A stretch of DNA of 24,721 nucleotides, from IMG/VR virus record IMGVR_UViG_3300042868_001482, positions 1 to 24,721 of that record; one strand, 5' to 3'. Under the pieces are notes generated by a model. That model was not told the origin of the DNA. It saw only the letters and a list, made by a program, of their open reading frames with translations, and made no database searches. Positions 730 to 19,546 of this stretch are shown here, in pieces. Origin of the DNA: a virus. Made by a program: the position numbers and the translations under genes. How positions within the stretch are numbered: position 1 is the stretch's first letter; each line of letters opens with the position of its first letter.

Positions 730-1149
730 ATGCAATGCCCTATTGAAACACATGACGTTAAAGCTAACCTGAAGAACAGGGATTGGGCTTTTAAGAACGT
801 AGGCTATGGCCCAGCTAATCCTGAACTCTCCAATGGAGCTTTCTGGAATGAAAGAGCTAATGAGTGGCAGACAAGTCTCTCACAGGCTAAGTCAATGCGC
901 TGTGGTAACTGCTCAGCCTTCATCCAGACACCTCAGATGATGGAGTGTATACGTTCAGGTATAGACCAAGAGACTGATAGCTTTGCTGGTGATGTCGTAG
1001 ATTCAGCTAAGCTAGGTTTCTGTGAGTTATTTGACTTCAAGTGTGCAGCTGAGAGAACTTGTAGTGCATGGTTAGTAGGTGGCCCAATAACATCTAGCAA
1101 GGTCGAGATTGACGACAATGCTTTAGATGATTCAACTAAGGATATGTGA
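730..1149 (+). CDS. Cysteine-rich, putative iron-sulfur (HiPIP-like) phage protein
   Basis: With the start at 730, seven bases after the previous stop, the product has 139 residues. The central and C-terminal part carries six cysteines: C58 and C61 in RCGNCSAF, C73 in MMECI, C98 in GFCELF, C105 in FKC and C111 in RTCSAW, followed by a glycine-glycine-proline turn. The spacing C-x2-C, then C, then C resembles high-potential iron-sulfur proteins, and small HiPIP-like proteins are annotated in other phages. A zinc site is an equally simple reading. There is no signal peptide or membrane helix. The stop overlaps the GTG codon just upstream of the portal start, so it is co-translated with the portal. 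Its role in the phage is unknown. Confidence 0.65.
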   Translation: MQCPIETHDVKANLKNRDWAFKNVGYGPANPELSNGAFWNERANEWQTSLSQAKSMRCGNCSAFIQTPQMMECIRSGIDQETDSFAGDVVDSAKLGFCELFDFKCAAERTCSAWLVGGPITSSKVEIDDNALDDSTKDM

Positions 1150-1151
1150 TT

Positions 1152-3164
1152 ATGGATGAAATTGGTAAAGACAGTCCCTTTGAGGAACCTACAGAGTCTG
1201 AGAAGGACTTAACTTCTTGGATTATTGACCACACAGATCGCTGGCGTGACCACAGAGATGCTAACTACATTGACCTGTGGGAAGAGTATGAGCGTATCTT
1301 CCGAGGTCAGTGGGCTGCTGAGGATAAGCAACGTGAGTCAGAGCGTAGCCGTATCATCTCCCCAGCTTCTCAGCAAGCTGTTGAGACTCGCCATGCTGAG
1401 ATCATGGAAGCTATCTTCGGTCAAGGTGAGTTCTTTGACATCCAAGATGACGTTAAAGATGTCAATGGTAATCCCTTTGATGTTGAACAAATTAAGGTTC
1501 AACTACACGAAGACTTCAAGAGAGATAAGATTAAGAAGTCAGTTGACCATATTGAGTTAATGGCTGAAATATATGGTACAGGTATTGGTGAGATTATTGT
1601 TAAGACTGAGAAGGAATACATCCCAGCTACTCAAGCCATTCCCGGTATCTCTAACGCAGCTGCCATTGGAGTTCAAGAGAAGGATCGTATTGCAGTTAAG
1701 ATCAAGCCTGTCAATCCTAAGAACTTCCTTATTGATCCTAATGCTGATTCCATTGACGATGCTCTGGGCGTTGCTATCGAGAAATACGTATCTATTCACA
1801 AGATTGTTGAAGGTATTGAAAGAGGCATTTACAAGAAAGTAGACATCTCACCTCAGTTTGATGATGATAAGTTAGAAGCTACTCAAGACATCCGTAACTT
1901 TGAAGACGATAAAGTTAAGTTGTTAACTTATTATGGATTGGTTCCTCGTGAGTACTTAGAAGACTTGGAAGAGGGTGATGAGAATGAAATCACAGACCTG
2001 TTCCCAGATGACTCCGTAGCTGATAACCACTCTGACTTGGTAGAGGCTATCATTGTGATTGCCAATGATTCTATCTTGCTTAAGGCTGAAGCTAATCCTT
2101 ACATGATGAAGGATAGACCAGTTATTGCCTACCAAGACGATACAGTGCCCGGTAGGTTCTGGGGTCGAGGTACGATGGAGAAAGCCTACAATATGCAGAA
2201 GGCTATTGACGGTCAGCTTCGTGCTCACATGGACTCCTTAGCCCTCACCACAGCACCTATGATTGCTATGGACGCTACAAGACTTCCTCGTGGTGCTAAG
2301 TTTGAGATTAGACCCGGTAAGGCTATCTTGACCAATGGTGCACCTTCTGAGATCCTGTATCCCTTTAAGTTTGGTCAGACTGATGGTAATGCAGTAGGTG
2401 CAGCTCAGAACTTTGAGCGTATGCTCTTGCAAGCTACAGGCACAGTTGACAGCGCAGGTCTGCCATCTAACGTACCCCGTGACGCAGGTGCTGGTGGTAT
2501 GTCTATGGCTATGGCTGGCATCATTAAGAAGTACAAGCGTACCTTGAGTAACTTCCAAGAAGACTTCATGATCCCGTTCATCAACAAGGCTGCATTCCGT
2601 TATATGCAGTTTGACAGTGAGCGTTATCCTTCAGTTGACATGACCTTTATCCCTACAGCTACCTTGGGTATTTTGGCACGAGAGTTTGAACAACAACAGA
2701 TGATTGGTTTGTTGCAGACCTTAGGCCCTAACACTCCAGTACTGCCTCTGATCCTTAAAGGTATCTTACAGAACAGCTCATTGTCTAACCGTGGTGAACT
2801 TATGAAGGCTTTGGATGAGATGTCACAGCCTAATCCACAGGCTGCTGAAGCTGCACAGATGCAACAACAGGCTGCAATGGAGCTGGCACAGGCTCAGGTG
2901 GCTGATTTGCAGTCCAAAGCTCAGAAACAGTCAGCTGAAGCTCAGAAAACCATGGTGGAAGCTCAGATGATCCCTGAAGAGCAGCGTGTAAAGCTAGTTC
3001 AAGCAGCTTCTACTAACCTAGATAGCGGTGATGACTTCGAGAAACGTCTAAAACTGGCTGACATGATGCTAAAAGAGAAGACTATTAACCTGAAAGCTGC
3101 TGATATTGCCTCCAATGAGCGTATTGCAAGCCTCCAGATGGCTAATAAACGGATGAAACAGTAA
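1152..3164 (+). CDS. Portal protein
   Basis: A 670-residue protein at the position expected for the portal, between the terminase and scaffold/capsid genes. The ring would form the DNA entry and exit channel at one capsid vertex and dock the terminase and later the tail adaptor. Visible features are an N-terminal charged helical region, a long mixed alpha/beta body, and an Ala/Gln-rich coiled-coil C-terminus (about residues 555-640), typical of large podoviral portals and perhaps the barrel extension. The start is taken as ATG 1152 because the AAGGAT site (1138-1143) is 8 bases from it. The in-frame GTG at 1146 lies only 2 bases from that site. The assignment rests on size, order and general appearance, not on a catalytic motif. 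Confidence 0.85.
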   Translation: MDEIGKDSPFEEPTESEKDLTSWIIDHTDRWRDHRDANYIDLWEEYERIFRGQWAAEDKQRESERSRIISPASQQAVETRHAEIMEAIFGQGEFFDIQDDVKDVNGNPFDVEQIKVQLHEDFKRDKIKKSVDHIELMAEIYGTGIGEIIVKTEKEYIPATQAIPGISNAAAIGVQEKDRIAVKIKPVNPKNFLIDPNADSIDDALGVAIEKYVSIHKIVEGIERGIYKKVDISPQFDDDKLEATQDIRNFEDDKVKLLTYYGLVPREYLEDLEEGDENEITDLFPDDSVADNHSDLVEAIIVIANDSILLKAEANPYMMKDRPVIAYQDDTVPGRFWGRGTMEKAYNMQKAIDGQLRAHMDSLALTTAPMIAMDATRLPRGAKFEIRPGKAILTNGAPSEILYPFKFGQTDGNAVGAAQNFERMLLQATGTVDSAGLPSNVPRDAGAGGMSMAMAGIIKKYKRTLSNFQEDFMIPFINKAAFRYMQFDSERYPSVDMTFIPTATLGILAREFEQQQMIGLLQTLGPNTPVLPLILKGILQNSSLSNRGELMKALDEMSQPNPQAAEAAQMQQQAAMELAQAQVADLQSKAQKQSAEAQKTMVEAQMIPEEQRVKLVQAASTNLDSGDDFEKRLKLADMMLKEKTINLKAADIASNERIASLQMANKRMKQ

Positions 3165-3779: not shown

Positions 3780-4562
3780 ATGGCTCTCATTGACCAAGAA
3801 GACGAATTGGGACAAAGCGAATTTGATGCAGTAGAAGAACTACAACAGGCGAGACAACAATCACCTGAAGAACCACAACAACAAGTCTCTAATGTTCCCG
3901 ACAAGTATCGGGGTAAAAGCTTAGAAGACATCGTGACAATGCACCAAGAGGCTGAAAAGCTAATTGGAAGGCAGGCTCAAGAAGTTGGGGAAGTTCGGAG
4001 ACTAGCAGATGAGCTATTGAAACAGCAACTCTCTCAGAAACAAGTACAGCCTGCAGTAGTAGAGAATGAGGTAGACTTCTTTGAAGATCCTCAGTCAGCG
4101 ATTCGTAAAGCAGTTACAAATCATCCTGACGTATTAGCCGCTAAACAAGCTTCACAGCAACTTAGGCAGATTCAGACACAAGCAATGCTCAACAAGAAGC
4201 ATCCTGACTTTGCAGATGTAGTACGTGATGGTGAGTTTATTGAATGGGTTAAAGCCTCTCCCATGAGACTTAATATCTATGCAATGGCTGATGCTAATTA
4301 TGATTTTGCAGCAGCAGATGAATTACTCACGACATTTAAACAGATCCGCACATCTAAGACACAACAAACCACTGATGCCGGAAACACTGTACGCAAGCAA
4401 AACTTGTCAGCAGCGTCTGTAGATGTTGGAGGGACTGGTGAATCATCTAAGAAAGTATATCGTCGTGCCGACCTTATCCGGCTACGTATGACAGATCCCA
4501 ACCGCTATGAAGCACTCGAACCTGAAATTCGAACTGCCTATGCCGAGGGAAGGGTAAAATAA
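3780..4562 (+). CDS. Capsid scaffold protein
   Basis: A 260-residue, highly acidic and glutamine-rich protein immediately before the major capsid gene, the standard place for a scaffold. Residues about 10-50 are low-complexity E/Q. A DKYRGKSLEDIVTMHQEAEKL-type segment follows, then a long coiled coil (about 55-90), and the C-terminus is basic (YRRADLIRLRMTDPNRYEAL), as expected for the capsid-binding end of scaffolds. It would direct prohead assembly inside the shell and then leave. An AAAGGTAGG stretch just upstream of ATG 3780 serves as the ribosome site. No protease motif is present, so maturation proteolysis is not indicated. Confidence 0.82.
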   Translation: MALIDQEDELGQSEFDAVEELQQARQQSPEEPQQQVSNVPDKYRGKSLEDIVTMHQEAEKLIGRQAQEVGEVRRLADELLKQQLSQKQVQPAVVENEVDFFEDPQSAIRKAVTNHPDVLAAKQASQQLRQIQTQAMLNKKHPDFADVVRDGEFIEWVKASPMRLNIYAMADANYDFAAADELLTTFKQIRTSKTQQTTDAGNTVRKQNLSAASVDVGGTGESSKKVYRRADLIRLRMTDPNRYEALEPEIRTAYAEGRVK

Positions 4563-4594: not shown

Positions 4595-5521
4595 ATGGCT
4601 TTAGGTACAGATCACGTCACGAAGACGACGGCAGATAAGTTCATCCCCGAAATTTGGAGTGATGAAATTGTTGCAACATACAAGAAGAACTTGGTGTTGG
4701 CAAACTTGGTTAAGAAGATGACCTTCAAGGGTAAGAAAGGTGACACCGTTCACATTCCTTCACCCACACGTGGCAATGCTACTGCTAAAGCAGCTTCAAC
4801 TCAGGTAACACTGATTGCAGCTACTGAGACAGAAGTTGTTGTTACTATCGATCAGCACTATGAGTACAGCCGCTTGATCGAGGACATCGTCGAAGCTCAA
4901 GCTTTGTCTTCACTGCGTAACTTCTACACTGAAGATGCTGGCTATGCTCTGGCTCGTCAAGTTGATACATCATTGATCCAAATTGGTCGTTCTGTCCAAG
5001 GCGGTGGTGGTACATCTGCTTACTCCGGTGCTTTCTCAGGTGCTGATGGTACTACAGCTTATGTTGGTGGTTCTACTAACACAGGTTTGGGTGCTCTCAC
5101 TGATGCAGCGATTCGTCGTTCCATTCAGCGTTTGGATGACAATGACGTTCCTATGGACGGACGTTTCCTTGCTATCCCACCTTCCAGCCGTAACACTTTG
5201 ATGGGTTTGGCTCGTTACACTGAACAAGCTTTTGTTGGTGAAATGGGTAATAACAACACCATTCGTAACGGTGAAATTGGTAACTTGTACGGTGTACCCG
5301 TGTTTGTTACTTCTAATGCTGATACCACTAACGGTACTACAGCTTGCCGTATTGCACTGTTGGCTCATAAAGACTTCGCAGTCTTCGTTGAGCAAATGGG
5401 CGTACGTTCACAGACTCAGTACAAACAAGAGTACCTCGGTACATTGTTTACTGCTGACACACTGTATGGCGTAAAAGAACTGCGTGACGGTTCAGCAGTT
5501 GCTTTGGCTGTTCCTGCGTAA
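4595..5521 (+). CDS. Major capsid protein
   Basis: A 308-residue protein with a strong AGGAG ribosome site 8-9 bases before the ATG and directly downstream of the scaffold. The N-terminal part has the signature of podoviral coat proteins of the HK97 fold: a KFIPEIWSDEIVATYKKNLV segment, then a VKKMTFKGKKGDTVHIPSP turn and the long spine helix beginning SRLIEDIVEAQALSSL. A glycine-rich loop (about residues 131-155) and a C-terminal beta domain follow. Codon use is uniformly GGT/GCT/CGT/AAC-type, in line with high expression. It is followed by a terminator. Assignment to the capsid is very likely. The precise sub-family (P22 coat-like or other) cannot be settled by eye. Confidence 0.92.
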   Translation: MALGTDHVTKTTADKFIPEIWSDEIVATYKKNLVLANLVKKMTFKGKKGDTVHIPSPTRGNATAKAASTQVTLIAATETEVVVTIDQHYEYSRLIEDIVEAQALSSLRNFYTEDAGYALARQVDTSLIQIGRSVQGGGGTSAYSGAFSGADGTTAYVGGSTNTGLGALTDAAIRRSIQRLDDNDVPMDGRFLAIPPSSRNTLMGLARYTEQAFVGEMGNNNTIRNGEIGNLYGVPVFVTSNADTTNGTTACRIALLAHKDFAVFVEQMGVRSQTQYKQEYLGTLFTADTLYGVKELRDGSAVALAVPA

Positions 5522-5615: not shown

Positions 5616-5789
5616 ATGAAATTTAAGTGTAAGCAAACTAATCAAATCTACAACTTTGAACACGCAGTTGATATTGTTTCAATGGAGAAGCACCCAGATT
5701 ACGAAGCAGTACCTGAATCTGAACCTGTGGTAGCACCTAAAGCAACTAAGAAAACAGTAAAGCAAGATGAAACCAATATCGACGGGTAA
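5616..5789 (+). CDS. Small conserved phage protein after the capsid gene
   Basis: A 57-residue ORF read directly from the sequence. It begins MKFKCKQTNQIYNF and has an HPDYEAV segment, a Pro/Glu-rich middle and a lysine-rich end. An AAAAGG site (5601-5606) lies 9 bases before the ATG. The product starts with a short beta-like segment containing the only cysteine and then looks disordered. Similar proteins beginning MKFKC and followed by a low-complexity tail are common right after the capsid gene in podophages. The last 23 bases overlap the next gene in another frame, so the two are probably coupled. The function is unknown. A minor head or joining component is possible. Confidence 0.68.
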   Translation: MKFKCKQTNQIYNFEHAVDIVSMEKHPDYEAVPESEPVVAPKATKKTVKQDETNIDG

Positions 5790-6099
5790 TGTTCTTACTG
5801 CAGCAACGCAGACTACTATTTTCACAGTACCCACAGGTTACTATGCTAAATGGAATCTTTGTTACGTTGTAAACCATTCAGGTAATAATAAATACATTGA
5901 TGTTGTATGGTATGACTCAAGTGCAGCAACTGAGGTTCACGTATTTGATAACTATGTATTAACTACTACTCAGTCTGTTACTTTTGGTAATGGTAATTAT
6001 GTTGTACTTGAAGAGGGTGATCAAGTTCGAGCAACGTCTGAGACTGGTTCCACAATGAATATTATTAACACGTTTGAGTTATACAGAAAAGGCGAGTAA
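5767..6099 (+). CDS. Small beta-rich structural protein (possible head decoration)
   Basis: A 110-residue, strongly beta-strand-like protein: alternating hydrophobic/polar stretches with TIFTVPTGYYAKWNLCYVVN and a YVVLEEGDQVRATSETGS segment that resembles jelly-roll or decoration-type virion proteins. There are no membrane segments or catalytic residues. The ATG lies inside the previous gene with only a weak ribosome site, so translation likely depends on coupling. Position after the capsid and before the large repeat protein supports a virion role. The exact role (head decoration, fibre cap) is inference. Confidence 0.62.
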   Translation: MKPISTGNVLTAATQTTIFTVPTGYYAKWNLCYVVNHSGNNKYIDVVWYDSSAATEVHVFDNYVLTTTQSVTFGNGNYVVLEEGDQVRATSETGSTMNIINTFELYRKGE

Positions 6100-6104
6100 C
6101 AATC

Positions 6105-7853
6105 ATGGCAACAACTCCTCAATCACTGACACCTGCACAGGTTGCTCAGATTGTAGCCGCAGGTCGTGGAAGTACTGTCAATATTGGCGGTACTTTGTAT
6201 GGCGGTAACTGGGCTGATATTGGTGATGGTGAGTCTAGACAAGAAGGTGCTCTTGCAGGTATTTATGGTTCTACAGGTATAGACCAAGCAGGTCAGCCTT
6301 TTTACTCCTATGATCCTTCAGGTGCTTTTACAGGGCAAGGTACAACTAAGGCAAGTCAATCATTCTTTGGTGGCTTAGCAGATGCTTTTAAAGATCCCGT
6401 AGTATTAGCAGCTTTAGGTGGTGCTGGTTACGCTGGTTTATTTGGTGGTGGCGGTGCTGCAGCTGCAGGTTTAACAGCTACTGAAGCCGCTGGACTAGGT
6501 TTAACAGCCGCAGAAGCATCAGCTTTAGGTCTTTCAGCTTCAGAGTTTGCAGCAGCGGCAGGAACAGCAGGGGTTGCAGGAGCAGCAGGAACAGCGGGAG
6601 CTTCAGGACTTACAGCTTCTCAAATTGCTAACTTAGCTAGGGCTGGTATCAGTGTTGCAGGGCTTATAGGTGCTGGTAACGCTGTCTCTAATATTGGAAA
6701 CAACAGAACAACCACTGCTACGCCTACTCCAGTGACTTACTCAGGTGGTGGTGCTGGCGCTGGTTACTCTCCTGACTACTTCAGTCAAGTACAGAGCAAC
6801 TACAATAGCTTGATGCCCGGAGTTCCTCGTAATGTTGCAAGTCCATTGCAGAACTGGTATTCAACTCAATTCAATCCCGGAGCTTCTGTTACAGGTAGTT
6901 TGTTTGGTGACATGGCTGGAGGTACTCCTGCAGGTAGCATGACTCCTACAACTCTTAAGCCTATAACTACCACTACTACACCAATAACTACTACTACACC
7001 TGTAATTACTGCTACTGCTGTTACTCCAACATACACTAACTTAACTAAGACAAGTACTGCTACAGATGTCTCTAAAGCTTATGCTGACTTTATTAAGAAT
7101 TCTGGTGGTAATACAGCAGCTAACAGAAAAGCAGCTACTGACTATTTAACAAACTTAGGTTTAACACAAGATCAGATTGGTGCTTCTTATAACGCTTATT
7201 TAGATACCCTACCAGCTGCAGGAAATACCTATGACGTATTGAATGCTAAGGCTAATGCAGGTAATGTAACACAAGCATATTCTACCTTCATTAAAAATGC
7301 TGGTGGTAATACAGCTGCTAATAGACAACTTGCAACTGATTACTTAAAAGATATTGGTGTTTCAGACACACTTATAAATCAAGCTTACTCAGATTATTTA
7401 ACTACACTTCCAGCTGCAGGAAATACATATCAAGAATTAAATGCAACAGCTGCTCCCACTAATATTGCACAAGCGTATTCATCCTTTGTTGGTGGTGCTG
7501 GTGGAGACACTGCTGAGAACCAACAGACAGCTATTAATTATTTGAAGGATATTGGTCTTTCAGATGAGCAAATAAATCAAGCCTACAACACATATTTAGC
7601 AGGAACTACTACTGGTGGTGGTGGAATGATGTCAGCAGGACAAAGCACGACAGGAACTGCAGCTGCACCTAGTTATACAACTTTAGGAGCAAGTAGTTCT
7701 CCTCGGGATATTGCTCTTGCTTATGCTGATTTTGTAGCTTCAGCTGGTGGTGATACTCCTGCCAATCAACAATTAGCTATAGATTATTTAACAGGTCTAG
7801 GTGTATCTCAAGATACAATCAATTCAGCTTATGGACTATTTACAGGTGCTTAA
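6105..7853 (+). CDS. Gly/Ala-rich virion-associated protein with four C-terminal 66-residue repeats
   Basis: A 582-residue protein starting 5 bases after the previous stop. The domains seen are: a short N-terminal domain (about 1-90); a Gly/Ala-rich hydrophobic stretch with glycine-zipper spacing (about 95-200), which could insert into a membrane; a conserved-looking YSPDYFSQVQSNYNSLMPG segment with a downstream SPLQNWYST motif (about 221-261); a Thr/Pro linker (about 279-310); and four copies of a helical repeat at 319-368, 385-434, 451-500 and 533-582. The last copy ends exactly at the C-terminus. Each repeat follows the pattern AYxxF...GGxTxxNxxxAxxYLxxxGxxxxxIxxAY. Similar repeat units occur, in my memory, in environmental phage proteins without known function. 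It may be a fibre-base, internal or adhesin-like protein. I do not assign one. Confidence 0.6.
   Translation: MATTPQSLTPAQVAQIVAAGRGSTVNIGGTLYGGNWADIGDGESRQEGALAGIYGSTGIDQAGQPFYSYDPSGAFTGQGTTKASQSFFGGLADAFKDPVVLAALGGAGYAGLFGGGGAAAAGLTATEAAGLGLTAAEASALGLSASEFAAAAGTAGVAGAAGTAGASGLTASQIANLARAGISVAGLIGAGNAVSNIGNNRTTTATPTPVTYSGGGAGAGYSPDYFSQVQSNYNSLMPGVPRNVASPLQNWYSTQFNPGASVTGSLFGDMAGGTPAGSMTPTTLKPITTTTTPITTTTPVITATAVTPTYTNLTKTSTATDVSKAYADFIKNSGGNTAANRKAATDYLTNLGLTQDQIGASYNAYLDTLPAAGNTYDVLNAKANAGNVTQAYSTFIKNAGGNTAANRQLATDYLKDIGVSDTLINQAYSDYLTTLPAAGNTYQELNATAAPTNIAQAYSSFVGGAGGDTAENQQTAINYLKDIGLSDEQINQAYNTYLAGTTTGGGGMMSAGQSTTGTAAAPSYTTLGASSSPRDIALAYADFVASAGGDTPANQQLAIDYLTGLGVSQDTINSAYGLFTGA
7059..7850 (+). 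repeat. Four tandem coding repeats of about 198 bp
   Basis: Repeat starts, judged from the protein alignment, are at 7059, 7257, 7455 and 7701. The first three have a period of exactly 198 bases, and a 48-base insertion rich in glycine codons precedes the fourth. Between copies, the CCAGCTGCAGGAAATAC stretch (at 7210 and 7410) is nearly identical at DNA level, which suggests recent duplication of the first two units. Confidence 0.8.
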
Positions 7854-7859
7854 TATACT

Positions 7860-10511
7860 ATGACAACAATTATCACAAAGAATAGCAGTACAGCCTCAGC
7901 AGCTCCTGCTTCAGGTGACTTAACCAAAGGTGAGTTAGCTGTTAACGTAACAGATAAGAAACTGTACACCAAAGACAATAGTGCAGCTATTGTTAAGATT
8001 GTAGGTTCCTTAGGTAATCAAGAAGCTTCAGCAGCTGCCATTACAGGTGGTACTGTTGCTGGAGTAGCTCAAACTGGTGGTACTATTAATAATACTCCCA
8101 TTGGTGGTACTACAGCTGCAGCAGTAACAGGCACTGTAGTTACAGCCACTACTAACTTTGTAGGTGCTTTGACTGGAGCTGTGACTGGTAACACAGCAGG
8201 TGTTCACACAGGTGCTGTCACTGGTAATGTCACTGGTAACGTAACAGGTAACGTAACAGCTTCCACAGGTACTTCAACATTCAACAATGTAACCATTAAC
8301 GGTACGTTGGACATGGATAGTGGTACTGCAGCTACTATTACAGGTCTTCCAACACCTACTAACTCAGGTGATGCAGCTAATAAGTCCTATGTAGATACAT
8401 CTATTAGTAACCTTATTGGTACAGCTCCTTCAACATTAGATACCTTGGGTGAGATCTCTGATGCCTTAAATGATGATGCTAATATTGCAGCTACGTTAAC
8501 TACAGCTATTGCAGGTAAACTTCCTTTAGCTGGTGGTACGATGAGTGGTGCTATTGCGATGGGTACGTCTAAGATTACTGGCTTAGGTACTCCAACTGCA
8601 GGTACTGATGCTACCACTAAGACTTACGTAGATGGTGTTGGTGATGCTAAGTTAGCCTTGGCAGGTGGAACCATGACAGGTAACATTGTCATGGGTGCTA
8701 ACAAGGTAACATCTACAGCTACTCCTTCAGCTAACAGTGATTTAACAACTAAAGTATATGTTGATGGTATTTTGGGTAGTGCTACAGCAGCAGCTACGTC
8801 AGCTTCAGCAGCGGCTACTTCAGAGACTAATGCTGGTAACTCAGCCTCTGCAGCTTCATCATCGGCCTCTGCAGCCAGTGCCTCTGCTAGTTCAGCTGCA
8901 TCGTCCTATGATAGCTTTGATGACCGTTACTTAGGTTCTAAAGCAACTGCACCATCTGTTGATAACGATGGTAATGCTTTGCTGACAGGTGCTTTGTACT
9001 GGAACACAGCTACAAATAACTTGTTTGTGTGGTCAGGCTCAACATGGACTAGCGCAGCGTTTACTGCTAGTGGCTTTGCTACTTTGACAGGCACAGAAAC
9101 CCTGACAAACAAAACGCTTACTGCACCAGTATTGACAAGCCCCAACATTACAACTGCATTGACTTTAACTAGTGCATCTGGCACATCAGGTCAAGTGCTT
9201 ACATCTGGTGGTTCTGGTGCTGCCCCTACATGGACTACTGTTGGTGCAACTCCGAGTGGCTCTAATACTCAAGTTCAATACAACAATGCTGGTGCATTTG
9301 GTGGCATTACTGGTGCTACAACTAATGGCACAGCATTGACCTTAACAGGCGCAATTCTTAATGGAACTATCGGTGCTACTACACCAGCATCGGGTAGCTT
9401 TACTACGCTTAATGCTACAGGTGTTACGACATTCTCTGCGGGAACTGCGGCATTACCCGCCTTGACAACAAGTGGCGACACAAATACTGGCGTATTCTTT
9501 CCTGCGGCAGATGTAATTGCTGCGAGTACGGGTGGTTCTGAGCGTTTACGTATAGATTCTAGCGGCAATGTTAGCATCGGGACAACAACGAATTCCACAG
9601 ACCCTTTATATATCAAAGGTTCTAATGCAAGTCAGTTATATACCACACATGAAAATTCTGCAGCGGGAGATACTGGTTTTCACTTAAAAAGAAGTGGAGG
9701 TACAACCAATGACGCATATATGTATCTTCCGTTAGGCTCAACTGATTTGAGATTTTATAATGGAGGTGGTGACAGAATCACAATACAAGGAAGTGGCAAC
9801 GTAGGTATAGGCGATACAAATCCTACTAACGCAAAACTTGTTGTTACTGGTGGTGGGATTGCTACCTCAATTATGACCAGTACTGTTGCACGATTTAGTG
9901 GCAGTGGTAATTCTATTCTCATTGGTGATGATGGAACTGATGGTGTAATTGGCGTAGGTAACTCTAGTTCAAATTTAGGATTTTTATCTCGTGTTGCTGG
10001 TGTTTATACAAAAACAATGGTGCTTACGTCAGCGGGTTATTTGCTTCTAGGATATACAACCAGCAATGGTAGTTATAACTTGCAAGTAAACAGTCAGATT
10101 TTTGCAACTTCATCTACTATTGCTACATCAGATGGTCGTTACAAAGAAGATGTAATTCCATTATCGGGTGCGCTTGATTTAGTTAATGCACTAAACCCAG
10201 TACAATTCAAATGGAAAAACCATCCAGTTCATAATTTTGATAGACAACAACCAACTGTGGGTTTTATTGCTCAAGAAGTTCAACAAGTATTGGTAGACAA
10301 ACCATATTTAAATAGCATTATTAAACACAATGAATGTATTCTTGAAAAAGAAGAAAAAGATAGTAATGGAAATATTATAAAAGAAGCCGTTATTGAAGAT
10401 TTTTTAGGTATTGCAGAAGGTAACATGATTGCAATTTTGACAAAAGCAATCCAAGAACAACAAGCCCTAATTGTCTCGCTCAAAGCACGACTTGATGCCG
10501 CCAATCTTTAA
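7860..10511 (+). CDS. Tail fibre with C-terminal S74 intramolecular chaperone domain
   Basis: An 883-residue fibre. The N-terminus has a KGELAVNVTDKKLYTKD segment typical of fibres and receptor-binding proteins. Residues 122-133 are GNVT triplets. Three repeats of the GGTMxGxIxMGxxKI...TKxYVD kind lie at about 145-179, 221-258 and 265-302. An Ala/Ser-rich coiled stretch (307-349) leads into a YDSFDDRYLGSKA motif. The distal part has repeated T/G/N-rich beta segments. The last 127 residues (757-883) are an S74-type chaperone: S757-D-G-R760-Y-K762, a core LNPVQFKW, GFIAQEVQQV, and a final AIQEQQALIVSLKARL helix. Such domains trimerise the fibre and are cut off just before the serine. Codon use changes near 9030. 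Confidence 0.85.
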   Translation: MTTIITKNSSTASAAPASGDLTKGELAVNVTDKKLYTKDNSAAIVKIVGSLGNQEASAAAITGGTVAGVAQTGGTINNTPIGGTTAAAVTGTVVTATTNFVGALTGAVTGNTAGVHTGAVTGNVTGNVTGNVTASTGTSTFNNVTINGTLDMDSGTAATITGLPTPTNSGDAANKSYVDTSISNLIGTAPSTLDTLGEISDALNDDANIAATLTTAIAGKLPLAGGTMSGAIAMGTSKITGLGTPTAGTDATTKTYVDGVGDAKLALAGGTMTGNIVMGANKVTSTATPSANSDLTTKVYVDGILGSATAAATSASAAATSETNAGNSASAASSSASAASASASSAASSYDSFDDRYLGSKATAPSVDNDGNALLTGALYWNTATNNLFVWSGSTWTSAAFTASGFATLTGTETLTNKTLTAPVLTSPNITTALTLTSASGTSGQVLTSGGSGAAPTWTTVGATPSGSNTQVQYNNAGAFGGITGATTNGTALTLTGAILNGTIGATTPASGSFTTLNATGVTTFSAGTAALPALTTSGDTNTGVFFPAADVIAASTGGSERLRIDSSGNVSIGTTTNSTDPLYIKGSNASQLYTTHENSAAGDTGFHLKRSGGTTNDAYMYLPLGSTDLRFYNGGGDRITIQGSGNVGIGDTNPTNAKLVVTGGGIATSIMTSTVARFSGSGNSILIGDDGTDGVIGVGNSSSNLGFLSRVAGVYTKTMVLTSAGYLLLGYTTSNGSYNLQVNSQIFATSSTIATSDGRYKEDVIPLSGALDLVNALNPVQFKWKNHPVHNFDRQQPTVGFIAQEVQQVLVDKPYLNSIIKHNECILEKEEKDSNGNIIKEAVIEDFLGIAEGNMIAILTKAIQEQQALIVSLKARLDAANL

Positions 10512-11536: not shown

Positions 11537-12187
11537 ATGGCTACGACATATCTACAGTTGGTTAACAACGTACTCATACGGTTAAGAGAAACTGAAGTAT
11601 CGTCAGTTAGTGATACTCCTTATAGTTCTTTGATTGGTGTGTTTGTTAATGATGCTAAGAGAGAGATTGAAGATGCTTATAACTGGAACTGTTTAACTAC
11701 TACCATTGTTATTCCTACAGTAGCGGGTACTCGTAACTACACATTGACAGGTTCAGGTCAAAGGTTTCGCACTGACGATGTCTTAAATGACACTCAAGAT
11801 GTACCTATGAGGTCAGTACCCACTAATTGGATGAACAGACAGTACTACATTGGTACTACTCAAAACGCATCTCCTATATACTATAACTACAGCGGTATCT
11901 CCAATGATGATACTCAGGTAGATTTATGGCCTCAACCTGATGGTGTCTATTCACTTAGGTTTGAATTAGTTATTCCTCAAGTTGACTTAACTGCCAATGC
12001 TGACCTATTAAAGGTTCCTCCTCATTTAGTACAGATGTTAGCCTACGCTAAAGCTGTTGGTGAACGAGGTGAGGATGGAGGTTCAGCTTTCAGTGAGATA
12101 TATCAGCAGTATCGTCTAGCCTTGGCAGATGCTATTGCCATTGAGAAGAATCGTTATGAAGAAGAAAACACTTGGATTGATGTCTAA
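11537..12187 (+). CDS. Head-to-tail adaptor (tail tubular protein A type)
   Basis: A 216-residue protein with AAGGAA upstream of the ATG. It starts MATTYLQLVNNVLIRLRE and contains the FVNDAKREIEDAYNW helix and the WPQPDGVYSLRFE strand typical of podoviral adaptor proteins (T7 gp11-type tail tubular A). The C-terminus ends in a long amphipathic helix with AYAKAVGERGEDGG and an EIYQQYRLALADAIAIEKN pattern. It would bind beneath the portal ring and join the nozzle. Its stop shares one base with the following start, as expected for a complex assembled with the nozzle. Assignment is by pattern and order. Confidence 0.85.
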   Translation: MATTYLQLVNNVLIRLRETEVSSVSDTPYSSLIGVFVNDAKREIEDAYNWNCLTTTIVIPTVAGTRNYTLTGSGQRFRTDDVLNDTQDVPMRSVPTNWMNRQYYIGTTQNASPIYYNYSGISNDDTQVDLWPQPDGVYSLRFELVIPQVDLTANADLLKVPPHLVQMLAYAKAVGERGEDGGSAFSEIYQQYRLALADAIAIEKNRYEEENTWIDV

Positions 12188-13725
12188 TGGTTGCTAAACT
12201 CTTAACCACGACTGTAGCAGCTCCTGGCTTTATGGGGCTGAATACACAGGATAGCTCAGTCTCTTTAGAGGCTGGTTATGCTACTGTGGCTAACAACTGT
12301 GTGATTGATAAGTTTGGACGTATTGGTGCTCGTAAGGGTTGGACTTTATCTCACGCTGTTAACAGTGATTTAAGCACTGCTGACGTTAAAGCTATTGGTG
12401 AGTTAATTGACAATGCTGGTAACTCATACATTATTGCTGCTGGTAACAATAAACTGTTTAAGCTTGTAGGTTCTACACTTACTTTGCTGACATACGGAGG
12501 TGGCGGTACAGCTCCTACAATCACAGACAGTCACTGGCAGATGGCTCCGTTGAATGGTGTCCTGTATCTGTATCAAGCTGGACATGATCCTTTAGTGTTT
12601 GACCCTACAGTCAGTACAACTACTTTTAGACGTATCTCTGAGAAGACTGGTTACTTAGGAACTGTGTCCAGTAACAATACAGTTATCAGTGCCTATGGTC
12701 GTACATGGAGTGCTAATAACGCTACAGTTAAGAGTACCATTCAGTTCTCAGACTTACTTGCAGGTCATGTCTTAAGTACTGGTACAGCTGGTACACTGGA
12801 TGTATCTCAGGTGTGGCCTAATGGTGCTGATGAGATTATATCCTTAGCAGCTCACAATAACTTCTTAATTGTCTTTGGTCGTAGACAGATTCTTATCTAC
12901 TCTAATGCTACTGACCCTAACAATCTAACACTATCAGATGCTATTACAGGTATGGGCTGTGTAGCTAGAGACTCAGTAGTAGCTACAGGTGGCGATGTTA
13001 TCTTCTTGTCTGACTCAGGTGTACGTTCATTGATGCGTACCATCCAAGAGAAGTCAGCACCTATGAGAGACATTAGTGCCAATGTACGTGATGACTTAGT
13101 GTTAGAGATTAGCTTAGAGACTGCAGCTGACATTAAAGCTGTATATTCAGATAAGGAAGCCTTCTATCTGTTGTCTCTACCAACTCGTCAGTTAGTGTAC
13201 TGCTTTGACATGAGAGCACCTCTACCTAATGGATCTAACAGGGTTACAACATGGGATGGTCTAGTTCCAACAGCTTTTAAGTATACTCGTAACAGAGACT
13301 TGTTAGTTGGTGAGTCTGGTTACATTGGTAAGTACGATGGCTACAAAGACAATGCTAACTCATACTTATTGAAATACTTTACTAACTACTTTGACTTTCA
13401 GTCACCTACTGTGATTAAGATTATGAAGAAGGTAGGCGTAACAGTTATTGGTGGTCAAGGATATGCAGTTACTTTAAAGTTTGGCTTTGATTACAGTGAC
13501 ATCTTGAACACCAGACAGTTTGATTTAGCCAATGCAGCTATTGCAGAATACAACATAGCTGAGTATAACATTGGTGAATATGGTGGGTCGGCCTTTGATA
13601 ATAAGATTATTAATATTGGTGGTTCAGGTAAGGTTATTCAGCTAGGCTTTGAAACCAATGTATTTAATAGATCAATATCCATTCAGAAACTTGATGTCTA
13701 TGTTAAGACAGGGAAGACACGATGA
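12187..13725 (+). CDS. Tail nozzle / stabilisation protein (tail tubular protein B or P22 gp10 type)
   Basis: A 512-residue protein following the adaptor with a TAATG overlap. The N-terminal region has the GFMGLNTQDSS and NNCVIDKFGRIGARKGW motifs common to phage tail nozzles. A series of short beta repeats follows, as expected for a beta-propeller-like nozzle (GGDVIFLSDSGVRSL, NNFLIVFGRRQILIY). Near the C-terminus there is a short repeat, IAEYNIAEYNIGEYGG (about residues 453-468). It would form the channel below the adaptor that closes the DNA exit and carries fibres. The single CCWGG site of the window lies near its start (12223-12227). Confidence 0.85.
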   Translation: MVAKLLTTTVAAPGFMGLNTQDSSVSLEAGYATVANNCVIDKFGRIGARKGWTLSHAVNSDLSTADVKAIGELIDNAGNSYIIAAGNNKLFKLVGSTLTLLTYGGGGTAPTITDSHWQMAPLNGVLYLYQAGHDPLVFDPTVSTTTFRRISEKTGYLGTVSSNNTVISAYGRTWSANNATVKSTIQFSDLLAGHVLSTGTAGTLDVSQVWPNGADEIISLAAHNNFLIVFGRRQILIYSNATDPNNLTLSDAITGMGCVARDSVVATGGDVIFLSDSGVRSLMRTIQEKSAPMRDISANVRDDLVLEISLETAADIKAVYSDKEAFYLLSLPTRQLVYCFDMRAPLPNGSNRVTTWDGLVPTAFKYTRNRDLLVGESGYIGKYDGYKDNANSYLLKYFTNYFDFQSPTVIKIMKKVGVTVIGGQGYAVTLKFGFDYSDILNTRQFDLANAAIAEYNIAEYNIGEYGGSAFDNKIINIGGSGKVIQLGFETNVFNRSISIQKLDVYVKTGKTR

Positions 13726-13953: not shown

Positions 13954-14967
13954 ATGGCTGATTTTGATTGGACAAGTTTATTAGGAGGCATAGCCTCTGG
14001 AGCTGTAGGTTCTATTGGTACTAACTACGCAGCTAACCAAGCAGCTGATGCAGCTACACAGTCTGCTGCTCAGGCTGCACAGATGGCTCAATTCAGACCT
14101 GTAGGAGTTACTACAAGGTTTGGTAAGTCAGGTTTTAACTATGACGATACTGGAAGGCTAATCGGTGCAGGTTATCAGGTAGCCCCTGACGTAGCTGCAG
14201 CTCGTGAAGGCTTGATGGGATTGGCTGGAACTAGCTTAGGACAAGCTCAGCAGATTCAAGCATATCAACCCAATGTCAATGCTCAAGCTGCAGGTCTGTT
14301 TAACTTAGGTGCTGGCTATATTGCTCAGACACCTCAAGCACAAGCTCAGCAGTACCTGACTCAGCAACAACAACTGTTAGCTCCCGGTCGTGAACAACAA
14401 CTTGCACAGCTGAGTAATATGCAACAGCAGCAGGGTCGTATGGGTCTAGCTACAGGTGCAACCACTGCAGGCTACACAGCAAATGCTCCCGGTTTAGCAG
14501 CGAGTAATCCTCAGTTTGCAGCTATGTACAATGCTAGAGCACAACAAGATGCTCAGTTGGCTGCACAGGCTCAGATGGCTGGACAGCAACAAGCTACGTT
14601 TGGTCAGGGTCTAATGACTGGTGGTATAAACTTAGCAGGTCAAGGCTTTGGATTACAATCACAAGCTCTGGCTCCATATACTCAGTATGCTCAACAAGCT
14701 ATTAACTTAGAGAATCAAGGTTTGAATGCTTTGACTCAAGGTACTGCATTGGGCGGTGCAGCAGCAGCACAGAACCAGCAAGCAGCTCAGTTGTATATGC
14801 AAGGTCAGAATACAGCTAACACAGCTCAACGTGCAGCTTTGCAAGGGACTGTTGGAGGACTGACAGATCCTATTAGTCAGTTGATTGCAGGTTTAACAAA
14901 CAGTGGTGGTTCTGGTGGTGTTAACTACAATGCTGTTATTAATCCCTACTTCCAGTCAAATCCTTAA
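13954..14967 (+). CDS. Internal virion / ejection protein 1
   Basis: A 337-residue protein, very rich in Gln and Ala. A glycine-spaced hydrophobic N-terminal segment (LLGGIASGAVGSIG, about 9-22) is followed by a helix with AANQAADAATQSAAQAAQMA and a conserved-looking RPVGVTTRFGKSGFNYDD block (48-65). The rest is Gln-rich helical, with TQQQQLLAPGREQQLAQL and similar segments, ending in a short glycine-rich tail. Small, Gln/Ala-rich proteins placed after the nozzle and before two larger ones are typical of the proteins ejected with the DNA (analogues of T7 gp14-16 or P22 gp7/20/16). It starts one base after the previous stop. Confidence 0.72.
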   Translation: MADFDWTSLLGGIASGAVGSIGTNYAANQAADAATQSAAQAAQMAQFRPVGVTTRFGKSGFNYDDTGRLIGAGYQVAPDVAAAREGLMGLAGTSLGQAQQIQAYQPNVNAQAAGLFNLGAGYIAQTPQAQAQQYLTQQQQLLAPGREQQLAQLSNMQQQQGRMGLATGATTAGYTANAPGLAASNPQFAAMYNARAQQDAQLAAQAQMAGQQQATFGQGLMTGGINLAGQGFGLQSQALAPYTQYAQQAINLENQGLNALTQGTALGGAAAAQNQQAAQLYMQGQNTANTAQRAALQGTVGGLTDPISQLIAGLTNSGGSGGVNYNAVINPYFQSNP

Positions 14968-14977
14968 GGAATAAATA

Positions 14978-16387
14978 ATGGCTACACCGTCAATACAAGG
15001 TTTGTTTGGAGGCATGAGTTCTCCTGAGGAAATGCAACAACAAGCAACTCAAGCTAAGGCTATGCAGTTTGCTCAGCTAACACCAGATCAACAACTAGGT
15101 ACGATGGCTTACAAGGGTGGTGCTAACTTAGGTCGTGGCTTAGCAGGTGCTTTTGGGGTTGACATCCAAGACCCGACTATCCAACGTGCTACTCGTTTGC
15201 GTCAACTTGCAAGTCAATACAACACCAACACAGCTCAGGGTCTTCGTGAGATGGCTGCTGCTTTGCAAGCTACAGATCCTGAGTCAGCTTTCCAGTTAAC
15301 TCAGCGTGCTATGACTATGGATGAAGCAGCTCAAAAGTCACGTAAAGAAGAAGCTGAGATTACATTAAAGAGTGCTCAAACATCTAAAGCTGGTTTTGAA
15401 ACTCAAGAACTATCTGATAAACAAGCAGCTAAGGGTGCTCGTGTTCAAATGTTGAAGGATGCTGGTTTAGGTGATTCTGAAGCTATGGGTATTGCTTCTA
15501 ATGATACAGCTTTTTCTAAATACATAGAAACTAAGAAAGTACCAGTGCCTTCTGACTATGCCGTACAAGCACAGAAGTTAGGATACACCGCTAAGCCTTA
15601 TCTGAGTGATTACACACCAGATCAAGTTAAGAAGATGGAAAAGGGTGTTGTTGCTAATAAACCTACTTCTGAGTTTGAAAGATTAGTGGAAAGTCTCCCT
15701 ATCTCAGACGACAAGAAACAATCAATGAAAGCTCAAAGAGTTACTTCTATGATAGCTGGGGATAGTTCAGGTCTTAAAGCTCTTTCAGCGGAATTGGCTC
15801 AAGCACGTATTGATGCTTTAAACTTAGAAACAAGACAAAAGAAAGATAAAGCTGATGATGAAAAGAGAATGGCTATTGAAAAGCTAAGCGGTGTAGAATC
15901 ATCTGTTGATACTACTCTTAATACTGCTGAGAAAGCATTAAAACTTGCTCCGGGAACAATGCTACAAGCTACTAATCAAGCTTTGTTTAATAACATTCCA
16001 TTCTCAGATGCTAAGTCAATGAAGAATTTAGTTAGTTCTTTGAACAGTGAGAAAGCCTTACAAGCACTGGAGCAGTTAAAAGCACAGAGCAGAACAGGTG
16101 CTACAGGTTTTGGAGCTTTGACAGCACCAGAATTGCAACTTATTATTGATAAGACACGTAGTTTAGACCCTACTGACAAGATGTTCAGGGAAAACTTAGG
16201 TATTATCATGGACGGTTGGAGAAAGATTAAAAACTCCTCAATGGATAGTCGTATCAACCTTCAAGGTAAGGGTGAGAAACTCTCTTCACTTAAGTCAAAG
16301 GTAGCAGCTGTTAAAGCTAGAGGATCAATGACAGCACAAGAGAAAGCTGAGATTGACGCTTTGAAAGCAGAACTAGGAGTTAATTAA
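14978..16387 (+). CDS. Internal virion / ejection protein 2
   Basis: A 469-residue, largely helical and charged protein. The N-terminus (MATPSIQGLFGG) is followed by Gln-rich helix, then segments such as DPTIQRATRLRQLASQY and DPESAFQLTQRAMTM and long coiled coils near residues 117-150 and 270-300. There is no signal peptide and no catalytic motif. It lies between two other probable ejection proteins with an AAGGA site before its ATG. Its stop shares one base with the next start. It likely helps build the trans-envelope channel during DNA delivery. The exact counterpart in T7 or P22 is not clear. Confidence 0.68.
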   Translation: MATPSIQGLFGGMSSPEEMQQQATQAKAMQFAQLTPDQQLGTMAYKGGANLGRGLAGAFGVDIQDPTIQRATRLRQLASQYNTNTAQGLREMAAALQATDPESAFQLTQRAMTMDEAAQKSRKEEAEITLKSAQTSKAGFETQELSDKQAAKGARVQMLKDAGLGDSEAMGIASNDTAFSKYIETKKVPVPSDYAVQAQKLGYTAKPYLSDYTPDQVKKMEKGVVANKPTSEFERLVESLPISDDKKQSMKAQRVTSMIAGDSSGLKALSAELAQARIDALNLETRQKKDKADDEKRMAIEKLSGVESSVDTTLNTAEKALKLAPGTMLQATNQALFNNIPFSDAKSMKNLVSSLNSEKALQALEQLKAQSRTGATGFGALTAPELQLIIDKTRSLDPTDKMFRENLGIIMDGWRKIKNSSMDSRINLQGKGEKLSSLKSKVAAVKARGSMTAQEKAEIDALKAELGVN

Positions 16388-18246
16388 TGGCTAATGAATT
16401 TGACATTTCTGGTATTCCAGTAGAAGGTCAGCCGCAAGTAGCACCACAAGCACCAAAGCCAATGGAAGACCCCGGTACTTCTGTTCTAAGTCCTAACTAC
16501 CGTCCTCGTGATGCCTTTGGTGGTCAGCAAATCGGTGGTGCTCTTGTAGGTATCCCTAGCACTGTGCTTGGCCCCGTAGGTTCTGCTGCTGGTTCTTTTG
16601 TTGGTGGTGCTGTAGGTGAAGCTGTTGAGCAAGTAGCTAGAGATGAACCGTTCTCATTAAAACGAGTAGGTATGGCAGGGTTTGAGGAAGCTGCTTGGGA
16701 TGTGGGTGGAAATCTTGTTCTTAAAGGCTTAGGTAAAACACTACGCTTTGGTGGTGATATATTAGGCTTTTCTAAGAAAGATATTCCAGATCCTAATAAA
16801 GCAGCTCAAACATTCTTGGAGAAACACGGGTCTTCATTACCAGCATCAGCCCGTACAGGAAGTAATTTTGATGCAACTTTAGAGGGTCTTGTAAATACCC
16901 CCGCTACCGCTGATTTGTTTAAGAACAAACAACAAGAGATTGCTCTTGCACTACAGGCGGGACAAAAGGATGTATTAAAGAAGTTTACAACTTCGCCTGA
17001 GTTTGAGCAAGCACTTCGTAGTGGCTCTTCAGCTCAAGAAACTTCTGGAAAAGAACTACACTCTTTTATTAAAGGTGGAGAGAAAGCTTTAAGCGAAGCT
17101 GTAGATCCTATTTATGAACGTCTGTGGGCTACAGCACCTAAGACTAACTTACTTGAAGTAACAGTTGGAGGTGCTCCACAAGTTAATATGTTCTCCGTTA
17201 AGGGTTGGGCTAATAAACAACTTCAAAATCCAGCTGAATTGACAGCAGGTCAAAAGTCTATTCTTAATGAAATGAAAGCCCTTCCACCAACTGTGGACTT
17301 CTTTACACTTCATAAGATGCGTTCACGTTGGTTAGCCGAGAATCGTGATAAATATGCTTCGCTTGGTTCTGAGAAAGATTCTAGAGCCTCTGGTACTATT
17401 TCAGGTGTTATTAAACAGTTTGACGATGCTTTAGACTTTTCAGCTAAAACAACCCTTCCTCCTGAGTTACTAAAAGAATATCGTACAGTAACTGAATCGT
17501 ATCGAAAGAGTATTCAAAGCCTTCAATCAGATACTATTCAAGAAGCTATGCGGCTGCATCCAGAAAAGGTGGGCGAGTATTTGTTTGCTAACGGAAATGA
17601 AACAACAGTTAAAGATGTTTTTAAAGCACTAGCTGAAGCGGGTAACTTAAATAAGAAGTCTTCTGCAGAAGTTATGAACGCTTTACGTGTTGGCTACTTA
17701 GACGGTCTTACACGTACGCCTGAGAATTTGCTTAAGTTCTCTACAGATCTAAAACAAAACACAAAGATGCAAAATACTTTCAATGTTCTTTTTGGAGGAA
17801 CAGCTCAGAAGGAAGCTATTGAGGCCATGAACAACGCTGCTAGGTTAGGGCTTGTTGCACCATCTAGAGAAGCAGGATTTAACATGGCTACAGCAGGAGC
17901 TATGAAAAACCTTGCAGGTGCAGCTGCATTGTATGGTTCTGGTTATATTATTCTTTTAAACCCTGAGCAACAACAACAAGCTAAAGACAACCTACCCGGT
18001 GTGCTTGTTACAGCTGGTGGGCTTTTATTGTCTCAACGTAACTTAGCTAAACTGTTGCTTGATCCTAAGGGTGCTAAGTCATTAAAATATGTTGCTATGG
18101 CTAAGGATAAACTTTCTAGCCCTACAGCCTTTACTAAGTTGGTAATTGAACCAATGAATAATATCTTAAATACTCCTATGTCTTTTGAACAGAATCCTTT
18201 TCAAATTAAGAGTGAGTACGATATTTCACACTTACCTATTAAGTAA
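16387..18246 (+). CDS. Internal virion / ejection protein 3
   Basis: A 619-residue protein. After a Pro-rich N-terminus there is a glycine-zipper hydrophobic segment at about 50-80 (ALVGIPSTVLGPVGSAAGSF), a sign of membrane insertion. A long helical body follows (about 130-500, including LHKMRSRWLAENRDKYASLG). Two more hydrophobic stretches lie near 510-526 and 538-549, with LYGSGYIILL and GVLVTAGGLLL. I see no lysozyme-like catalytic motif, so unlike T7 gp16 it does not appear to carry a transglycosylase. It is the last gene before the lysis cassette and starts with a TAATG overlap. Assignment as an ejection protein rests on position and membrane-insertion features. Confidence 0.68.
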   Translation: MANEFDISGIPVEGQPQVAPQAPKPMEDPGTSVLSPNYRPRDAFGGQQIGGALVGIPSTVLGPVGSAAGSFVGGAVGEAVEQVARDEPFSLKRVGMAGFEEAAWDVGGNLVLKGLGKTLRFGGDILGFSKKDIPDPNKAAQTFLEKHGSSLPASARTGSNFDATLEGLVNTPATADLFKNKQQEIALALQAGQKDVLKKFTTSPEFEQALRSGSSAQETSGKELHSFIKGGEKALSEAVDPIYERLWATAPKTNLLEVTVGGAPQVNMFSVKGWANKQLQNPAELTAGQKSILNEMKALPPTVDFFTLHKMRSRWLAENRDKYASLGSEKDSRASGTISGVIKQFDDALDFSAKTTLPPELLKEYRTVTESYRKSIQSLQSDTIQEAMRLHPEKVGEYLFANGNETTVKDVFKALAEAGNLNKKSSAEVMNALRVGYLDGLTRTPENLLKFSTDLKQNTKMQNTFNVLFGGTAQKEAIEAMNNAARLGLVAPSREAGFNMATAGAMKNLAGAAALYGSGYIILLNPEQQQQAKDNLPGVLVTAGGLLLSQRNLAKLLLDPKGAKSLKYVAMAKDKLSSPTAFTKLVIEPMNNILNTPMSFEQNPFQIKSEYDISHLPIK

Positions 18247-19051: not shown

Positions 19052-19546
19052 ATGTTAGAGATGCTAGGTGGTGGTCTATTGGGTAGTATCTTCGGAGGTC
19101 TATTCCGAATGGCTCCGGAAGTCCTTAAGTGGCTAGACAAGAAGAATGAGCGTTCTCATGAACTCAATATGTTTAAGTTCCAGTGTGACTTAGAAGCTCA
19201 GCGAGGACAACAGAAGTTAGCTGAGATAGGTGCTCAACGTGAAGCTGCTATCGATACTGGTGTCATGAATGCCTTTCAGTCAGCTATTGAGCAACAGACT
19301 GAGATGGTTAAGGCTGCTGGTGGCTGGGTAGCTTCTCTGTCTGCCTCAGTACGTCCTGTGGTGACTTACTGGATCTTAGGTCTGTGGAGTTTTATCCACA
19401 TCTGGCTATCATACAATGCTTGGGTGTCAGGTATGCCTCCATTGGATGTCTTTAAAGTCATGATGTCAGCTGACTTTGCAGCCCTAGTATCAGGTACTTT
19501 GAACTACTGGTTCCTAGACCGTACACTGGCTAAACGAGGTCTGTAA
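19052..19546 (+). CDS. Holin, gene-transfer-agent type
   Basis: A 164-residue protein starting at ATG 19052 (MLEMLGGG), with a GAAGGG site 7 bases upstream. The TTG at 19046 is in frame but nearly touches the ribosome site. It shows the pattern of the 3-TM holin family described for gene transfer agents: a glycine-rich N-terminal segment (LLGSIFGGLFRMAPEVLKW), a long charged amphipathic middle with EAQRGQQKLAEIGAQ, an SASVRPVVTYWILGLW core and a second hydrophobic stretch near the end (FAALVSGTLNYWF). It probably makes the pore that lets the following lysozyme out. Its last base overlaps the lysozyme start. Confidence 0.72.
   Translation: MLEMLGGGLLGSIFGGLFRMAPEVLKWLDKKNERSHELNMFKFQCDLEAQRGQQKLAEIGAQREAAIDTGVMNAFQSAIEQQTEMVKAAGGWVASLSASVRPVVTYWILGLWSFIHIWLSYNAWVSGMPPLDVFKVMMSADFAALVSGTLNYWFLDRTLAKRGL

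Follow-up and report, generated by a model that had tools for sequence, protein, structure and literature searches.

A C-terminal repeat array exchanged as one cassette next to the tail fibre gene of metagenomic phages

The virus record IMGVR_UViG_3300042868_001482 (24,721 bases, analysed over its whole length and called the window hereafter) encodes, directly 5′ of its tail fibre gene, a 582-residue protein that ends in an array of four related units. Among relatives of this protein, the whole array is swapped as one cassette. Direct DNA comparison of four pairs of loci, each joining one carrier of the window's type of array (module A) to one carrier of a second type (module B), shows the similarity breaking off 38-42 bases beyond a conserved FNPGA motif and returning where the next gene starts. 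Between L013 (A) and L020 (B), identity is 93.3% up to about residue 283, no match is seen from there to the stop codon, and the 1266 bases that begin at the fibre start are again 80.7% identical. For L002 (A) against L019 (B), identity is 95.2% up to about residue 279 and 90.6% in the first 191 bases of the fibre gene; L014/L007 and L011/L015 show 74.9% and 84.6% identity before the swap and 86.4% and 82.2% after it, respectively. These junctions fall near the start of the Pro/Thr-rich tether that precedes the units. The capsid proteins of the window and L031 are 99% identical; the two carry different modules (A and C, respectively), and their DNA similarity ends near residue 58.

With somewhat less than even confidence, we read this protein as a modular component of the DNA-entry machinery, the units of which, like beads on a string, would contact a host-specific component of the envelope. 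The N-terminal part would hold the protein in or on the particle, and a flexible Pro/Thr-rich tether would carry three or four three-helix beads. The bead string would be exchanged for module B or C by recombination, bounded by the conserved N-terminal part on one side and the conserved beginning of the next gene on the other. The protein would be ejected or otherwise exposed during DNA entry, allowing the beads to bind, several at once, to the envelope component, and the cassette would change with the host. Presence in the virion, ejection, multivalent binding and an envelope ligand are the steps of this scheme that we infer. If the array is indeed the host-specific contact of the entry machinery, host range would be determined at two points, the fibre being one of them; the natural cassette boundaries mark the exact segment to test.

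The gene lies in a head-tail gene cluster (Table 1), and its neighbours, an SU10-type portal, an SU10-type adaptor and a P22-type capsid protein, place it in the virion region. Judging from these three protein families, the source is a distant SU10/HMO-2011-like short-tailed phage. The portal and adaptor genes match Pfam PF23899 (80.5 bits, cut-off 30) and PF24175 (59.2 bits, cut-off 27); the nozzle candidate at 12187-13725 has no match in the Pfam search. Further virion-region genes follow the adaptor before the endolysin. A search with the portal hits 25 phage records, most of them HMO-2011-like. The window has its portal, adaptor and capsid-protein families in common with HMO-2011-like and SU10-like phages, but portal identity is only 21-26% among the 20 records listed of the 25. 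HMO-2011 itself has a single 486-base gene between its capsid and tail genes, and no gene like the one studied here is annotated there; the accessible part of PMC10386132 contains nothing on HMO-2011 or SU10. Alleles of the 110-residue gene preceding the target gene fall into two groups, which share about 40-50% and 59-96% identity with the copy in the window.

Table 1. Position of the repeat-bearing gene, its parts and its neighbours in the window
Feature	Position	Strand	Remarks
SU10-type portal	1146-3164		
Scaffold-like gene	3780-4562		
P22-type capsid protein	4595-5521		
110-aa gene	5767-6099	+	phrog_1276 (function unknown); 5′ of target gene
Target gene, 582 aa	6105-7853	+	No known family
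N-terminal domain, residues 1-100	6105-6404	+	Modelled as a helix and five strands within residues 10-80
Gly/Ala-rich block, residues 84-205	6354-6719	+	Low model confidence
Conserved motif, around residues 221-256	6765-6872	+	Y225, P238, R242, W251 and Y252 nearly invariant
Pro/Thr-rich tether, residues 281-318	6945-7058	+	63% P+T
Unit 1, residues 319-368	7059-7208	+	Modelled helices 319-332, 338-350, 355-368
Unit 2, residues 385-434	7257-7406	+	Three helices modelled
Unit 3, residues 451-500	7455-7604	+	Three helices modelled; no counterpart in three-copy relatives
Unit 4, residues 533-582	7701-7850	+	Three helices modelled; C-terminal end of protein
Tail fibre	7860-10511	+	Peptidase_S74 chaperone domain; its start limits the swapped cassette
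SU10-type adaptor	11537-12187		
Gene matching phrog_5107 and phrog_3287	12187-13725		'Amidase' and 'virion structural protein', respectively
337-aa gene	13954-14967	+	L039 homologue fused to target-like N-domain
Endolysin	19546-19986		
Ribonucleotide reductase		opposite	

The reading frame and the four units had been recognised, at the positions given in Table 1, in a preliminary description of this DNA, and both are confirmed here, as is the fixed 198-base period of the first three units, which start 66 residues apart; unit 4 starts 82 residues after unit 3. Any two units are identical at 20-29 of 50 residues (40-58%), and local BLOSUM62 scores between the four 66-residue segments range from 116 to 200, the best of any pair in 500 shuffles being 60. 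Units 2 and 3 resemble each other most. The 48-residue unit pattern stops two residues short of the last residue of the protein. No extra copy was seen in the first 260 residues, where windows score at most 26 against unit 2, and Tandem Repeats Finder gave no row inside 7059-7850. The DNA between the first repeats, previously called nearly identical, is less similar than this implied: 37 of 48 bases agree between the linker that follows unit 1 and the one that follows unit 2, and sampling of 48-base windows in steps of 24 bases at a 198-base offset gives 38 of 48 at best. Likewise, the Gly/Ala block had been termed membrane-like, a view to which hydropathy lends no support. Computed over residues 88-205, the block holds 52% Gly+Ala and 8 charged residues, and none of its 19-residue Kyte-Doolittle windows reaches 1.6, a usual threshold for transmembrane segments (maximum for the whole protein, 1.33). 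The net charges of the units (-1, -1, -4 and -4) make DNA binding by them unlikely.

An AlphaFold2 model of the window protein, built from 28 sequences, has a mean pLDDT of 63.8 and a pTM of 0.31, so that the placement of domains relative to each other is unreliable. Within the model, ten-residue blocks of the units have a pLDDT of 65-88, mostly 74-88, and every unit is predicted to form three helices, in agreement with the repeated helical fold expected earlier. The Pro/Thr tether and the linker at 503-519 stay below 50, and the linkers between units are probably flexible.

Relatives were collected by scanning viral contigs with the window protein (9 loci), the family alignment (at least 37), module B (29) and module A (11). 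These sets overlap, and the number of loci is a lower bound. At the target locus, examined in the window and 41 other IMG/VR contigs, the C-terminus is one of three modules, A, B or C. Module A is the window's unit in three or four copies, so the anticipated variation in repeat number does occur: four copies are found in the window, L001, L002, L003 and L070, and three in L011 (identical to L012), L013 and L014. L071 has three intact units and a shortened fourth, and L005 is cut by the contig end. In the L071 protein (L071:2638-4404), the fourth unit is three residues shorter than that of L070 and so misses the unit pattern. Module B consists of three degenerate units over about 190 residues, an arrangement as three repeats that hhalign supports at 91-98%, and module C spans about 215-220 residues. 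A model of module B (12 sequences; pLDDT 85, pTM 0.74) predicts three sets of one short helix and three helices, so that the three-helix layout is common to the A and B models. In hhalign comparisons, module A aligns with the third B unit at 71% and with the other B and C pieces at 2-6%; whole-module values are 39% for A with B and 61% for B with C. Given the range of 2-71% between A and pieces of B or C, no common ancestry of the three modules is claimed.

The N-terminal part is mostly shared among relatives and is itself mosaic. L058 (5104-6582) and L060 carry module B at the same locus behind a different stretch of about 190 residues, which in part is similar to the L009 protein. The tether also varies, being a long Gly-Thr run in the class B proteins L019 and L020 and rich in Pro/Val, Pro/Thr or Gly/Asp in other relatives. 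The next gene begins 4-17 nt past the stop codon in 40 of 42 loci, the other two contigs ending earlier, and it starts like the window's fibre gene in 37 of these 40 and otherwise in three (L033, L070 and L071).

In keeping with the preliminary description, PHROG, Pfam, PDB profile and Foldseek searches tied the unit to no known family convincingly. The protein has no PHROG match at E 0.001, and all its Pfam rows fall below the cut-off, with no RecX or Ltp at E up to 1; by sequence, it thus matches neither a known ejection family nor a fibre family in PHROG or Pfam. In PDB sequence profile searches, module A found nothing at E up to 1, RecX included, and module B yielded four rows too weak to convince (best E 0.064). 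A tblastn search of 50,697 phage records, from which those very near the window may be absent, gave no match for the window protein, L004 or L041, one weak record for L009, and seven for L040 over its SGNH part only. Among pattern matches to modules A and B in genome scans, 0 of 52 and 0 of 22 encode a relative. Literature searches brought up no title on this bead array, which is not proof of its being unpublished. Since the family recurs in viral metagenomes, yet was found neither in PHROG and Pfam nor in the phage record collection, describing its modules would improve annotation.

The same parts occur in other phage proteins. These were compared as a set of 18 with low-complexity filtering and composition correction, and the E-values given for this comparison refer to that set and not to a database. 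A 744-residue protein of L075 has a single B-like unit at residues 110-153, followed by two units of the A type (about 193-316; 48% identity, 5e-27). Of the two genes flanking it, the preceding one matches the 'DNA ejection protein' phrog_4287 (2.9e-11) and the following one phrog_5880 (1e-62), of unknown function. In L063-L069, module B lies within proteins of 749-1075 residues, and in six of these seven the C-terminal region relates to the L075 ejection protein (hhalign 90.8%, E 1.2e-6). A segment of the GEFVVPADVV / GEYVMDAETV type is common to L063-L069 (residues 492-559 in L064) and to a Gly/Ala-rich neighbour, L075:4237-6081, which weakly matches tape-measure PHROGs. Fusions provide a second connection. 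In L039, a domain resembling residues 21-100 of the window protein (41%, 5e-10) is joined to a homologue of the product of gene 13954 (44%, 2e-15), and in L009, a segment like the L058 N-terminal domain (35-36%, 1e-5) is joined to another 13954 homologue (38%, 5e-15). Through these common units and fusions, the target is connected with proteins of the virion region and of ejection cassettes. A 53-residue match of the Gly/Ala block to L009 vanished after low-complexity filtering and was dropped. Gene 13954 was also compared with the phrog_4287-like family, and since hhalign gave only 0.06-0.35%, the name 'ejection protein' was not transferred to it. Residues of about 522-549 of the L039 protein form a helical stretch with a weak match to Pfam RecX_HTH1 (E 0.11, far below the cut-off).

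The reading of the protein as entry machinery draws on these units beside or within the ejection-cassette proteins of L075 and L063-L069, on the L039 fusion, on the location in the head-tail cluster, on the clean swap in the four A/B pairs and on the three-helix units separated by low-confidence linkers. It is weakened by the lack of PHROG and Pfam matches, of any hydropathy window reaching 1.6 and of a higher pTM than 0.31, by the position of the gene between the capsid and fibre genes and not among genes 13954-18246, and by the missing link between 13954 and the phrog_4287-like family. The known ejection proteins (T7 gp14-16, P22 gp7/16/20 and SU10 gp20-24) are likewise modular and encoded in the head-tail cluster, and the target has units in common with proteins from a cassette that includes a DNA ejection protein. 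It differs from them in its place between capsid and fibre genes and in its ending in swappable three-helix beads. Gp14- and gp16-like ejection proteins have membrane-spanning segments; the target has no 19-residue window at 1.6, but it does have the block of 52% Gly+Ala. According to the accessible parts of PMC8954989, ejection proteins are mosaics that have exchanged domains, and the ejection protein that bears a peptidoglycan-hydrolase domain can vary; those of PMC9509320 describe SU10 gp20-24 as lost on genome release. We suggest that the target may work like an ejection protein without filing it as one, since it matches no known ejection family.

The choice between modules B and C is linked to the neighbouring fibre. 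After clustering of 40 loci to 32, 13 of the 14 clusters with module B have fibre type I and one has type III, all eight clusters with module C have type II, and module A occurs with type I in five clusters, type II in three and type III in two. B and C thus follow fibre type and A does not. Fisher's test of B/C against fibre I/II gives p = 4.9e-6, which overstates independence, as the clusters are related and the genes adjacent. B and C showed no difference by upstream gene (29 of 32 clusters) or capsid allele (22 of 32; p = 1 each), in tests that have little power and use allele thresholds, 60% and 85%, chosen after the identity table had been viewed. Fibres next to different modules can be nearly the same, those of L014 (A) and L020 (B) being 95.6% identical over all 586 residues; none of the B-C fibre pairs reached 70% over 120 residues. 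That B and C follow fibre type is expected of a host-related part and favours a host-related role for the array.

The same linkage would fit an external adhesin on the tail, the fibre base or the capsid surface, with the beads forming a second receptor-binding array beside the S74 fibre, which we regard as possible and as the foremost alternative. An external place is favoured by the adjacency to the fibre gene, by the linkage, by the L009 units, which match phrog_14753 'head fiber protein' at 8.7e-4, and by L040:325-2442. The latter, encoded at the target locus, starts with a GDSL/SGNH hydrolase (PF13472, 1.1e-14) akin to domains of tail fibres and tailspikes and has the conserved motif of the target at its C-terminal end; the motif is also present in L041. 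A GDS motif and a DDLTHP stretch, which we assume to be catalytic, are visible in the L040 hydrolase. SU10 gp10, the gene of which lies between those of the capsid protein and the adaptor, is predicted to fold like the N-terminus of a head fibre, as stated in the accessible part of PMC9509320. Tail fibres and receptor-binding proteins with exchangeable distal parts also resemble the target in being conserved proximally and replaced distally, with junctions at conserved flanks. Unlike them, the target module is modelled as all-helical, belongs to a separate gene and differs beside 95.6% identical fibres. An adhesin is further opposed by the absence of any match to a fibre family, by the pairing of module A with all three fibre types, by purifying selection on the units (below) and by the recurrence of A and B units in ejection-cassette proteins.

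A narrower form of the entry reading, which we consider rather unlikely, would make the bead array a plug-in specificity part delivered with the DNA and recognising a host-specific target behind the surface receptor, whether periplasmic, in the inner membrane or intracellular. Were this so, it would add a second, internal layer of host range that could change without the tail fibre.

Comparison of eight class A proteins (L005, L012 and L071 were left out) shows that the same unit position is on average 70-83% identical between phages, different positions being 43-60% identical. For the C-module, dN/dS is 0.17-0.32 over six class A and three class B pairs, and for the N-terminal part 0.17-0.50. 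By these measures, the units are differentiated parts kept by selection. As every position is conserved between phages at such low dN/dS, change takes the form of replacement of the set, or loss or gain of one unit, and not of fast divergence. The comparison with receptor-binding or spacer proteins first made for the repeats remains a suggestion. Together with the different C-modules beside 95.6% identical fibres, conserved positions and low dN/dS disfavour a fast-diverging receptor binder. Beads that only set length or bulk in the entry apparatus, tuned by copy number and module type, would suit the three or four tandem copies, the long variable tethers and the similar module sizes (about 190-220 residues for B and C), but a plain spacer needs neither differentiated units nor conservation of each between phages, and the probable flexibility of the modelled low-confidence linkers also argues against it. 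We judge such a spacer unlikely. It is very unlikely that the C-module serves the neighbouring fibre by docking, folding or regulating it: adjacency of the genes and the B/C linkage would agree with this, but A occurs with three fibre types, A and B stand beside 95.6% identical fibres, and the window fibre has its own S74 chaperone domain.

Neither the window model nor module B has a confident match among solved structures. RecX is made up of three tandem three-helix repeats, and as a family it ranks first for the window model, with chains at Z 5.8, 5.2, 5.2 and 4.6, tied with unrelated chains; Foldseek retrieves RecX 3e3v with a probability of 0.98 and an E of 0.12. Tandem three-helix units are common to both, but the target differs in having separate beads on flexible linkers, in being encoded in the virion region and in showing no sequence match. 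With Z at most 5.8, this similarity is too weak to use. Module B reaches a best Z of 4.3 and does not list RecX; its rows for Ltp (4eqq, Z 3.4) and a surface-exposed lipoprotein were set aside as too weak. These similarities are what an ejected effector would build on, a RecX-like or Ltp-like helical repeat acting after entry on a host protein of recombination, defence or superinfection, which is highly improbable because all Z values lie below the level of 8-13 that the structure comparison tool gives for helical repeats, unrelated chains score equally well and no RecX or Ltp family matches the target. In the viral library, the fold search matched A0A6J5LS95 (5.8e-6), an unnamed protein of an uncultured phage.
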